Below, piece after piece: positions 16,983-48,197 of a DNA stretch of 57,245 nucleotides. The DNA comes from an uncultured bacterium. Lineage in GTDB: Bacteria > Verrucomicrobiota > Kiritimatiellia > CAIVKH01. The translations under genes were made by a program, and so were the position numbers. How positions within the stretch are numbered: position 1 is the stretch's first letter; each line of letters begins with the position of its first letter. Below the pieces are notes generated by a model, which made no database searches, was not told the origin of the DNA, and saw only the letters and a program-made list of their open reading frames with translations. The DNA lies in the NCBI GenBank assembly GCA_937958885.1, contig CALGMT010000030.1:1-57245 (forward strand), given 5' to 3'.

Positions 16983-17541
16983 CCGTACAACCTAACGCAA
17001 TTGCACGTGCGGGTTAAGGGTTTTAGTCAATAAATTTATGGTTTGGGTTTTGGCTTGTTGATCTCTGTATTCTTGTTTCGGGCTGCATCGGGGGCGGACC
17101 ACAGTCGGTCTGTGATGCTGGCGAGGCATGAGAGAAAATGGTGGGTTTAGAGTCTTTGGCGGCCCTCGGTGTGGCCAAAAATTGGCGTGCAGGCTTCGAG
17201 TGGGCGCGAGATTCATGAGGCTTTGTCGCGGGCCGACGAGTGCTGCTCGTGGTTCGACCTTGGATGCGAAACGGAAGTGCACTTTGACCGGACAGATGCG
17301 ATACGTCACAACAATCAAGAACGATGCGGGCGCGTTCACGCCACGAATCTAAGACCGCCCTCTTTCCCCTTGCCTCGTCTGCGAATCTCCACCCCCCATT
17401 AATTACCTGGCTCCTCCCCAACGATGTTAATATTCATCGTTTGACCCTTTTGACACAACGATGTTAACATTCATCGTTTGACCCCTTTTGGGAATCCTTT
17501 AGGGAATCCGCTGTTTCCTGAACAACTCAATTGAACGTGTG
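16983..17541. other. 559-bp spacer without a convincing gene
   Basis: Both flanking genes are on the - strand. The part next to the amylase start is AT-richer than its surroundings (aataaatttatgg near 17030) and probably holds that gene's promoter. Read on the - strand, TTGACT occurs about 45 bases upstream of the GTG, but no good -10 is placed with it. Short overlapping frames in 17023-17421 look random. The distal part carries the tandem repeat at 17421-17489. Confidence 0.5.
17421..17489. repeat. Tandem 37-bp repeat with an AAAAGGGGTCA word
   Basis: Two copies of ACGATGTTAAYATTCATCGT followed by TTGACCC(C)TTTTG start at 17421 and 17458. Each contains a small palindrome (ACGATG...CATCGT). 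On the - strand the unit reads AAAAGGGGTCAAACGATGAA. A third copy, lacking the first two bases, ends the element at 44981-45010. The same AAAAGGGGTCA word, in other contexts, occurs at 44728 and near 57107. Confidence 0.8.
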
Positions 17542-25977: not shown

Positions 25978-26077
25978 CCGGACCCGCCGAGGGAAAAGAC
26001 CGACGCAGTCAACTCCCTCTCCCACCCCGTGGGAGAGGGCTTGGGTGAGGGCAGCGCGGCGCGTTGAGATGCCGCGC
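25978..26077. repeat. REP-like palindrome inside a repeat mosaic
   Basis: The spacer 25956-26121 contains CCGGACCCGCCG (25978), an 11-bp stem CCCTCTCCCAC / GTGGGAGAGGG with a 3-base loop (26015-26039), and a CTTGGGTGAGGGC tail. GCGGCGCGT-GAGA-GCCGCGC (26056-26077) comes last. The stem-loop recurs twice, in opposite orientation, at 46652-46676 and 46886-46910. The outer words match the spacer before ald. Confidence 0.8.
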
Positions 26078-45052: not shown

Positions 45053-45343
45053 ATGAAGACCATCGTTCACGTTCATGTACGGGTGAACCCTGAGGGCGTC
45101 GAGGCGTTCAAGGCCGCGACGCTCGCGAATGCGCGGGCGAGCCGGCAGGAGCCCGGCGTCGCGCGATTCGATGTCTATCAGCAACAGGACGATCCCACAC
45201 GATTCCTGCTCATCGAGGAATACCACACCGGCGATGCGCCCGCCGCGCACAAGGCCACCGCACACTACGCCGCGTGGCGCGACGCGGTCGCCCCGCTGAT
45301 GGCGGAAGAGCGGCGCAGCGTGAAGTACACGGAAGTCGAATGA
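45053..45343 (+). CDS. Antibiotic biosynthesis monooxygenase (ABM) domain protein
   Basis: This 96-residue protein has a dimeric alpha/beta ferredoxin-like fold of the ABM family. It shows [68 protein letters not shown] and a final strand. Members are small quinone or aldehyde-handling enzymes such as YgiN or LsrG. The exact reaction cannot be read. It overlaps the alcohol dehydrogenase by ATGA, so the two probably act on one substrate. Confidence 0.8.
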
Positions 45344-46476
45344 TTCCGTTTGAGTTCGCTACCGCGCAACGAATTCTCTTCGGCCGCGGCCGCGCTGCCG
45401 AACTGCCGGCGCTAGCCGCGTCGTTCGGCTCGCGCGTCGCGCTCGTCACCGGCGCCTCGCGCCGCCACGCCGACCGCGTGGCGGCGGCCTGCGTACTGCC
45501 CGTCGCGGGCGAGCCGACGTTCGATGCTGTGCGCGCGATGACCGATGCCGCGCGCTCGGCTCGTGCGGACGTTGTTGTTGCCATCGGCGGCGGCCGCGCG
45601 ATCGACGCGGGCAAAGCGCTCGCGATGCTGCTGACCAACGGCGGAGATCCGCTCGACTACGCGGAGGTCATCGGCGCGGGGAAACCGATCGCGGTGCCGC
45701 CCGCGCCGTTCGTCGCCGTACCGACCACCGCGGGCGCCGGATCCGAAGCGACGCGCAACGCGGTGCTGCGCGAACCCGCGCAGCGCATGAAAGTCAGCTT
45801 GCGCAGTCCGCTAATGCTGCCGCGCGTCGCGCTGATCGATCCAGAACTCGCGTTCGACCTGCCGCCCGGTCCGACCGCTGCTTGCGGAATGGATGCGCTC
45901 TCGCAACTGATCGAGCCGTTCCTGTCCTGCCGCGCCAATCCGCTGGCGGACGCGCTCTGCCGCGACGGCATTCCGCGCATCGCTCGCGCGCTGCCTCGCG
46001 CAGTGGAAAATGGGCGCGACGCGGAAGCGCGCGAGGAGCTTGCGCTCGCCGCGCTATACGGCGGAATCGCGCTGGCAAACGCGGGATTGGGCGCCGTGCA
46101 CGGACTCGCCGCGCCGATCGGGGGCGAATTCGACGCCCCGCACGGCGCGGTCTGCGCGGTGATGTTGCCCGGCGTGTTCGAAACAAATTTTTTACAGAGC
46201 ATGGAAGTTTCAAAAAAAGTTTTTACAGAGCATGGAAAATTCGGCGAGATCGCGCGCTTGCTGACCGGACGCGCGGACGCAACGCCGCGCGACGCTGCGG
46301 CGTGGTTGCGCGCATTGCGCGAGCGGTTGGGCATTCCGGGATTGTCCGCATACGGCGTACGCGCAGAGCACGCGCGCGCCCTCGCGGAAAAGGCGCAGCG
46401 GGCCAGTAGCATGAAGGGAAATCCGGTACCGCTGTCGGATGAGGCGTTGGAGCGGATCGTGGTGGACGCGTTGTGA
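45340..46476 (+). CDS. Iron-containing alcohol dehydrogenase family protein
   Basis: This 378-residue NAD(P)-dependent enzyme has [21 protein letters not shown] (nucleotide site) and [17 protein letters not shown]. Two of the usual metal-ligand regions are visible as [12 protein letters not shown] and [19 protein letters not shown]. The substrate is unknown. Around residues 282-300 the coding sequence becomes AT-rich and contains an 18-bp direct repeat, but the frame is intact and length is normal. It is translationally coupled to the ABM gene. Confidence 0.85.
46189..46237. repeat. 18-bp direct repeat inside the alcohol dehydrogenase gene
   Basis: TTTTTACAGAGCATGGAA occurs at 46189-46206 and 46220-46237, offset by 31 bp, so the two copies are read in different frames (FLQSME and VFTEHG). 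The intervening sequence is A-rich. The segment codes for a loop before the helix GEIARLLTG. Confidence 0.85.
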
Positions 46477-46516
46477 GTGAGCGCACTCACCACTCGTCGA
46501 GCGCTGTAGTTTCACT

Positions 46517-46914
46517 GCTCAGCCGGGGAAGGTGTGAAATCAAAAATCTTCGGCGACGGAGCGCCGAAGCTACGGCATTCGAATAGCCAAAGAAAATGGA
46601 AGGGCGTGATCGCCGAGGCCGCTGAACTGATGAAAGTCGCCCTCACCCCAACCCTCTCCCACGCGGTGGGAGAGGGGGAAGCTGAAGACGCGGGCGCTGA
46701 CCGCGTCGATCATCGATCCGGCAAGGTCTTACTTGAGCTGCTGTTCCGCCGCTCAGCCGGCAGAAGTGTGAAATCAAAAATCTCCGGCGACGGAGCGCCG
46801 GAGCTACAGCATTTGAATAGCCAAAGAAAATGGAAGGGCGTGATCGCCGAGGCCGCTGAACTGATGAAAGTCGCCCTCACCCCAACCCTCTCCCACGCGG
46901 TGGGAGAGGGGGGC
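46517..46914. repeat. Direct 164-bp duplication with hairpins and REP palindromes
   Basis: The spacer 46477-46964 contains no credible gene. Copies 46517-46680 and 46751-46914 share over 90% of bases by eye. Each has a stem-loop (46548-46569; 46782-46803) and a REP-like palindrome (46652-46676; 46886-46910). A 144-codon frame across both copies is an artefact of the repetition. Confidence 0.88.
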
Positions 46915-46964: not shown

Positions 46965-48197
46965 CTAAATGCGCTTAAGCGCGGCAGCCGCGCGCGCGAG
47001 GATGCGGCGAGCACATTCGGTCTTGTTCAATGTGCCCCATTCTTCGGATTCCGCATCCGGCGAAATCCAAGTGTAGGAACCCGACTCGCCACCGAGCGCA
47101 TCCAACGCGTTGAGCACAATGCCGTCGAATTTCTTCTTCTTCATCTTCGCAGCGGCTTTCGCCGGGCCGTCGTGCGTTTGCAGCGCAAATCCAATCGCGA
47201 CTTGGCCGGACCGTTTGTGCGTGTTCAAGGTCGCGGCGACGTCGGGCGTGGGTTCAAGTTGAATGGTCAGCGGAGCGTCGGTTTTGGGTAATTTCTCGCC
47301 GACGGCAGCAGCGGGACGATAGTCGGCGACGGCGGCGGCGTAGATGACGATGTCCGCGCGATCGAACCGCGCATGCGCGGCGGCGAGCAATTCGTCCGCG
47401 CTGACGATCCGCGTGATTTCGATGCGCGGGCCGCGCGGGAGGTTTTCGTCCGCGACGGGGCCGGTGACGAAGTCCACGTCCGCGCCGGCTTCGGCGGCGG
47501 CCAGCGCGAGCGCGCGGCCCATCTTGCCGCTGCTCGGGTTTCCAATGTAGCGGACGGGGTCGAAGTGCTCGCGCGTGGGACCGGAGAGGATCAGGACGCG
47601 GCGTCCGGCCAGCGGGCGCGGGGCGCGCAGCCGCGCGAGTGCGCGCTCGGCGATGTCGGCCGGTTCGGTCATACGGCCTTCACCTTCCATGCCGCACGCC
47701 AGCGCGCCGGACTCGGGGCCGATCCGTATCCATCCGCGCGCTTCGAGCGCGCGCACGTTTTCCTGCACAACCGGGTTGCGCCACATCTCGACGTTCATCG
47801 CGGGGCAGCACACGCGCAGACAATCGGCGGGCAGGGAGAGCGCGCACGCGGAGACGAGATCCGGCGCGAGGCCGCGCGCGATTTTGGCGATACTGTTCGC
47901 GGTGGCGGGCAGGAGGATGAAGGCATCCGCGCGGGTGGCGGGATAGAGGTGCGGATACGCGGCGTCGCCCGCGGCCGATCCGTCCGGGATCAGGCGGTCG
48001 AGGACGGGCCGTCCGGTAACGGCGGCAAAGGTGAGCGGCGCGACGAATGCGCGCGCGGCGTCGGTCAGGGCAACGTGAACTTCACAGCCGGCCTTGCGCA
48101 GCCGGCTGGCGACCTCGACGGCTTTATAGGCGGCAATACCGCCGCAGATGCCGAGGAGGATGAGCGGCGCGCGTTCGGAGGGGGGCTCGCTATTCAT
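46965..48197 (-). CDS. coaBC: Phosphopantothenoylcysteine decarboxylase/synthetase CoaBC
   Basis: This 410-residue bifunctional enzyme of coenzyme A synthesis has both parts. The CoaC flavin domain has GICGGIAAYKAVEVASRLRK, LLPATANSIAKIARGLAPDL and CPAMNVEMW, and the substrate flap ALACGMEGEGRM. The CoaB domain has SGPTREHFDPVRYIGNPSSGKMG, YAAAVADYRPAA and IGFALQTHDG. It makes 4'-phosphopantetheine from phosphopantothenate and cysteine. No rpoZ or dfp-linked dut gene is adjacent. Confidence 0.95.
   Translation of the reverse strand: MNSEPPSERAPLILLGICGGIAAYKAVEVASRLRKAGCEVHVALTDAARAFVAPLTFAAVTGRPVLDRLIPDGSAAGDAAYPHLYPATRADAFILLPATANSIAKIARGLAPDLVSACALSLPADCLRVCCPAMNVEMWRNPVVQENVRALEARGWIRIGPESGALACGMEGEGRMTEPADIAERALARLRAPRPLAGRRVLILSGPTREHFDPVRYIGNPSSGKMGRALALAAAEAGADVDFVTGPVADENLPRGPRIEITRIVSADELLAAAHARFDRADIVIYAAAVADYRPAAAVGEKLPKTDAPLTIQLEPTPDVAATLNTHKRSGQVAIGFALQTHDGPAKAAAKMKKKKFDGIVLNALDALGGESGSYTWISPDAESEEWGTLNKTECARRILARAAAALKRI

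Follow-up and report, generated by a model that had tools for sequence, protein, structure and literature searches.

A probable tandem-duplicated REPIN with GTAG-type tags beside a triplex-motif hairpin in a Kiritimatiellia genome, and a matched base-pair change at about chance level

GTAG REPs, as presented by Di Nocera 2013 (PMC3733652), form head-to-head dimers that are reiterated in tandem together with flanking DNA. They are described there as enriched in the verrucomicrobial Opitutus terrae, for which the families GTAG-17, -19, and -20 are named. Bertels and Rainey 2011 (PMC3116915) describe REPINs and their tandem arrays, with compensatory changes being common. The TIRYT, a variant of the RAYT (TnpA-REP) flanked by terminal inverted repeats, is distinguished in PMC3733652 and PMC8266576, and repeats with an intrastrand triplex motif have been published by Holder 2015 (PMC4666352). 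Features of this kind, and observations like the one considered here, are thus already in the literature.

We analyzed a stretch of 57,245 nucleotides from an uncultured bacterium (the window), in which a hairpin within a 164-bp duplication had been predicted to carry a compensatory base-pair change. The hairpin stands as originally drawn: the stems are CTTCGGCG/CGCCGAAG at 46548–46555/46562–46569 in copy 1 and CTCCGGCG/CGCCGGAG at 46782–46789/46796–46803 in copy 2, the loop ACGGAG is unchanged between the copies, and one pair is T-A in copy 1 and C-G in copy 2. The 23-nt hairpin core occurs twice in the window, where 0.01 occurrences are expected by chance. This hairpin is a REP palindrome with the consensus GTAGCTCCGGCGCTCCGYCGCCGGAG, here called the GTAGCTCCGGCG-type REP, and reads GTAG-CTYCGGCG-CTCCGT-CGCCGRAG on the minus strand. 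A second palindrome, with the consensus GTAG-TTCCGCCG-CTCCGC-CGGCGGAA, lies 16 nt away in the opposite orientation. In each copy, the two inverted REPs are joined head to head, GTAG tags outward, into a dimer of about 70 bp, a REPIN (Table 1); REPINs are a common type of mobile palindrome pair in bacteria. We consider it very likely that each copy is a head-to-head REPIN with GTAG-type tags plus a triplex-motif hairpin, and that this unit has been duplicated in tandem between two convergent genes.

Table 1. Coordinates in the window of the duplicated unit, its palindromes, and the flanking genes.
Feature	Position	Strand	Description
Tandem copy 1	46503..46678	.	REPIN, spacer, and triplex-motif hairpin; from repeat search
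Tandem copy 2	46737..46912	.	93% identical to copy 1, 234 bp downstream; from repeat search
REPIN 1	46504..46575	.	Head-to-head REP dimer, GTAG ends outward
REPIN 2	46738..46809	.	Head-to-head REP dimer
REP 1L	46548..46573	-	GTAGCTTCGGCGCTCCGTCGCCGAAG; originally predicted hairpin plus GTAG tag; genome model match E 1.2e-4
REP 1R	46506..46531	+	GTAGTTTCACTGCTCAGCCGGGGAAG; inverted partner, degenerate, one broken pair; weak model match E 0.98
REP 2L	46782..46807	-	GTAGCTCCGGCGCTCCGTCGCCGGAG; near the genome consensus; model match E 4.6e-6
REP 2R	46740..46765	+	Inverted partner with one broken pair; GCTG in place of the tag; model match 46743-46764 E 0.0034
Hairpin B, copy 1	46639..46677	-	Putative intrastrand-triplex-type motif CCCTCTCCCACCGCGTGGGAGAGGGTTGGGGTGAGGG
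Hairpin B, copy 2	46873..46911	-	Identical to copy 1
Iron-containing alcohol dehydrogenase (upstream neighbor)	45340..46476	+	Pfam PF00465 and PF25137 on 45343-46473; 3' end toward the repeat
CoaBC-like flavoprotein, DFP (downstream neighbor)	46965..48197	-	Pfam PF04127 and PF02441; 3' end toward the repeat

The tag consensus, the stem, and the inverted pairing were observed directly in the genome from which the window derives. An 8-bp stem with a 6-nt loop is common to 39 aligned REPs of this genome, mostly arranged as inverted pairs, and a pattern search for the hairpin core with up to three mismatches found 22 copies (one with the reversed pattern as a control), of which 19 have an inverted partner when up to 9 substitutions in 26 positions are allowed, hence some partners are degenerate. 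A sequence-only model built from the 39 REPs gave at least 75 matches at E<=1 and at least 47 at E<=0.01, counts that are lower bounds with 150 candidates scored. The high copy number and the short stem are those of GTAG REPs, most families of which have stems of 6–13 bp. GTAG is the column consensus of the tag among the 39 REPs, but the exact tag is present in only 19 of them and in 28 of the 63 REPs of a wider set; the inexact tags make for weaker support for the GTAG REP identity of these copies taken alone. Two inverted REPs with outward tags and the possibility of a longer hairpin, the arrangement expected for REPINs, are found as well. On folding, a well-kept copy elsewhere (L020) forms one long hairpin of -27.1 kcal/mol; for both window copies, two separate hairpins are the best fold.

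The duplication also exists in the window, at a length of 176 nt rather than the 164 originally given. A repeat search aligned 163 of 176 nt as identical at a stride of 234 bp. All 13 differences, 11 of which are transitions, lie in 46507–46580, within the two palindromes or just past them; the following 98 nt are without a difference. The boundary at 46580 is abrupt, with 46507–46580 diverged and 46581–46678 identical. Such a sharp border between diverged and identical parts of a duplicated unit suggests that gene conversion acted locally or that the assembly produced it. We judge it unlikely that the collapsing of repeats during short-read assembly contributed to this mosaic, in which a 74-nt part with 13 differences adjoins 98 identical nt; such an artifact would in any case be compatible with the REPIN reading. 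The sharp split in identity at 46580 is what such an artifact could leave, and copies reach or approach the contig end on C15, C11, C3, C6, and C21, so that the repeat may break the assembly, but comparable tandem arrays with diverged units are present on C1 and C13, and the window contig runs on through the array.

These tandem arrays, like the copy number, are direct observations. The dimer, spacer, and hairpin B recur jointly elsewhere in the genome, as two tandem units with a period of about 234 bp on C1 and as three dimers (one partial) on C13, where the array has a period of 240 bp and 2.5 copies; C56, C86, C11, C3, C55, C64, and C70 carry single or partial units. A tandem-repeat finder at its threshold reported neither the window array nor the C1 array, and both are recovered by the repeat search and BLAST. 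The genes on either side of the window copies are convergent, and Pfam supports both. In four relatives, the alcohol dehydrogenase gene was absent up to about 1.5 kb from the flavoprotein gene, and the neighborhood is thus not conserved there. As a separate observation, the alcohol dehydrogenase gene itself contains, at 46176–46237, two tandem copies of a 31-bp repeat with the core TTTTTTACAGAGCATGGAA. This repeat has 143 matches in the genome at up to two mismatches (reversed control 0), many of those listed being spaced 31 bp apart; the protein with the in-frame repeats can still be aligned across them to a methanol dehydrogenase of known structure, a gap of three residues lying close by.

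The locus shares with the GTAG families, as PMC3733652 portrays them, the tag, the stem length, inverted dimers, heterodimers with different stems, tandem reiteration, and an occurrence in Verrucomicrobia, but its inter-REP gap is 13–16 nt in the dimers measured here, compared with the 20–100 bp given there for most dimers. With the Pseudomonas REPINs characterized in PMC3116915 it has in common hairpin-forming REP doublets and ordered tandem arrays of two REP types. Those REPINs are located near specific RAYT genes, whereas none was found here for this REP.

Hairpin B lies about 65 nt from the hairpin originally predicted and follows the plan CCCTCTCCC...GGGAGAGGG...GGGGTGAGGG. By eye, a purine arm is followed by a mirror-like purine third strand, so that an intrastrand triplex may be predicted. 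On the minus strand, it resembles the E. coli motifs of table 1 in PMC4666352, with CCCTCTCCC, a loop, GGGAGAGGG, and GGGGTGAGGG as the third strand; unlike the motifs in that table, it recurs beside REPINs within a shared unit of about 234 bp. The genome contains 61 matches to it at up to three mismatches (reversed control 2). A lone third copy in the window is found on the minus strand at 26015–26052, with two mismatches in the first 21 bases.

Among 20 genomes searched as relatives, the window's own included, seven have a REP match at E<=0.01: besides the window's own genome, G011 has 152, G017 two, and G007, G008, G013, and G016 one each, and two genomes of the same genus have none at that threshold. 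Further genomes with matches are G020 (120), G022 (65), G023 (9), and G021 (6). An exact scan of a genome-contig collection, which may omit the window's own genome, returned 94 stretches, all from five assemblies, one of them labelled Verrucomicrobia. Some other genomes are directly seen to carry many copies of the REP with little variation among them: in the fetched G011 loci, 145 of 152 REPs have the exact GTAG tag, and 128 of the 152 are accounted for by four sequences. The exact tag, carried by under half of the REPs in the window's genome and near-universal in G011, fits an eroded population in the former and a fresh one in the latter. Besides REPs, the G011 loci L110 and L112–L115 contain many short repeats GGGGACAGGCAC / GTGCCTGTCCCC. 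Searching seven proteins of the window's genome by tblastn against the REP loci L104–L119, L152–L251, L252–L265, and L284–L297 revealed no relative; the hits were confined to L120–L131, loci that had been chosen for their transposase.

Ten Y1_Tnp matches were found in the window's genome. Seven of the eight Y1 proteins scanned match NF047646 (REP_Tyr_transpos, NCBIfam) with 40–70 bits, below the curated 80-bit cut-off, and the eighth has an IS200/IS605 match slightly under the cut-off. At nine transposase loci of this genome, no gene is flanked by the REP, the nearest REP being 2.7 kb away (L060). Elsewhere, the Y1_Tnp search gave 39 matches (12 loci) in G001, G002, G003, G005, G011, and G017 and 18 matches (18 loci) in G020–G023, with none in G011, G021, or G023. 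The 30 loci thus come from part of the 57 matches, and the 29 that remain without L124, in six other genomes, have no REP at E<=0.05 in flanks of up to about 1.5 kb. Hence, the loci examined, from incomplete assemblies, include no REPtron, that is, no RAYT flanked by its own REP. Six REP-type genes with both flanks available have, by eye, inverted GGGGTC-type ends and not the GTAGCTCCGGCG-type REP (L060–L065, with GGGTC upstream of L065); in L062 and L064, the 3' copy of the end overlaps the gene end. These ends fit the TIRYT type with GGGGWSAS ends as set out in PMC3733652. The seven matching proteins resemble the RAYT (TnpA-REP) of PMC3733652 and PMC8266576 in the NF047646 matches and differ in the sub-cut-off scores and, for the six genes, in the GGGGTC-type ends. 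Within the window, a palindromic unit AACGATGTTAAYATTCATCGTTTGACCC(C)TTTT occurs twice at 17419–17490 and resembles the terminal repeat of L061, the Y1 transposase gene of contig C18; this is probably a small element of the TIR type. The near-uniformity of the copies, their number (over 100 matches in two genomes), and the lack of a Y1_Tnp match in G011, the assembly of which is rated 98% complete with its 152 REP matches, would be in line with a REPIN family that spreads without a dedicated REP-flanked transposase and is moved in trans by a TIR-type Y1 or another enzyme, a possibility we hold to be unlikely.

The matched base-pair change had been taken to indicate selection on, or templated copying of, a folded form. 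In the 39 REPs of the window's genome, 90.4% of stem cells are paired, compared with 82.8% after shuffling, and cells with a double change number 29, compared with 14.3, dropping to 2–4 when the partner is slid by 1–3 columns; the pairs with any double change (3) and the pair types (10) are not above shuffles. This covariation is almost entirely between two REP subtypes, pairs 5/26 and 10/21 accounting for 27 of the 29 cells, and it implies that the fold is real. We separated the subtypes in the wider set, for which 31 of 94 candidates below 20 bits had been excluded to leave 63 REPs, of which two without a subtype were dropped; assignment was from four stem positions, which suppresses doubles at 5/26 and 10/21 and leaves pair 7/24, the pair originally singled out, unaffected. 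Within subtypes, the 61 REPs have 74 one-sided stem cells and five two-sided ones. Only two of the latter are paired, against 2.3 by shuffling (69% of 2000 shuffles reach 2), and both belong to copy 1 of the window. The preponderance of one-sided changes speaks for decay of these copies. What holds of the earlier reading is that the hairpin belongs to the REPs, a class that published systems recognize as a folded single strand, and that the subtypes covary; the compensatory change does not serve as evidence for selection or templated copying.

Pair 7/24 is C-G in 28, T-G in four, T-A in two, and unpaired in five of the 39 REPs, and in the 63 it is C-G in 45, T-G in eight, C-A in four, and C-C, G-G, and T-A in two each, without an association of T7 with A24 (Fisher one-sided p = 0.24). 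The change from T-A to C-G in the original prediction therefore runs the other way, with copy 1 derived. Unpaired changes at this pair in other copies, named beforehand as evidence against the prediction, do occur: the pair is one-sided in 16 of the 63 REPs, eight of them T-G with a wobble possible. When 13 differences were simulated in 80 nt, 9% of runs produced a pairing-preserving double change in this hairpin and 18% produced one in either hairpin (2% and 4% with the differences even over 176 nt), and with clustered differences a single matched change is thus weak evidence. Among the many decaying copies of this genome, a matched change of this kind is roughly what chance would produce. 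Recounts in two other genomes used all their stretches from the 94-stretch scan. The 152 REPs of the fetched G011 loci have 22 one-sided changes and one double, which is unpaired; 69 subtyped REPs of the fetched G020 loci have four one-sided changes and four paired doubles; in each of these doubles, a left-type stem has the right-type T-A at 5/26. We read these as subtype mixtures, though they may represent fresh compensation at 5/26.

A double change made in one step, through repair templated by the hairpin (quasi-palindrome correction, or a template switch inside the REPIN), appears very improbable. Both REPs of copy 1 are T-A at the same pair and are the sole two such among the 63 REPs (two further T-A pairs among the 94 candidates are both in 10-bit matches), and with the two loop positions left aside, the left and right REPs of 18 dimers share 3 stem-and-tag states against 1.8 (P 0.25), as such repair might produce. 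Over all positions, however, the dimers show no excess, sharing 4 derived states against 5.1 when re-paired; both one-step intermediates, T-G (8) and C-A (4), are present in the genome, and in copy 1 one pair of the right REP is broken. The T-A in both REPs of copy 1 is a coincidence noticed post hoc, to which the 18-dimer test gives no generality. Purifying selection on a transcribed hairpin, as a small RNA, a terminator, or an mRNA stabilizer 3' of the minus-strand flavoprotein gene, is likewise improbable. Both convergent genes have the repeat on their 3' side, and two minus-strand terminator-like sites, one per hairpin, compare with 0.5 expected, but the T-run after the stem belongs to the dimer spacer and is missing there in several copies, for example L020, the Rfam search of the window had no match at gathering thresholds, and there is no covariation within subtypes.

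For the favored REPIN interpretation, published work on related systems would suggest that the REPs move in the form of single-stranded hairpins; an HUH/Y1 transposase (RAYT) would recognize tag, loop, and stem and carry out the cutting and joining. Stems kept while the population is active and decaying later might be expected under the published mechanism, and the REP population of the window's genome would then be old and decaying. Slippage or ordinary recombination could account for the tandem copies, and two separate transitions for the T-A of copy 1.

In summary, one matched base-pair change in a repeat pair is easily mistaken for selected covariation; once the subtypes are separated, one-sided changes greatly exceed matched ones in this genome. 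The repeat represents a further REP family, not linked to any transposase so far, and a genome labelled Verrucomicrobia is among its carriers.
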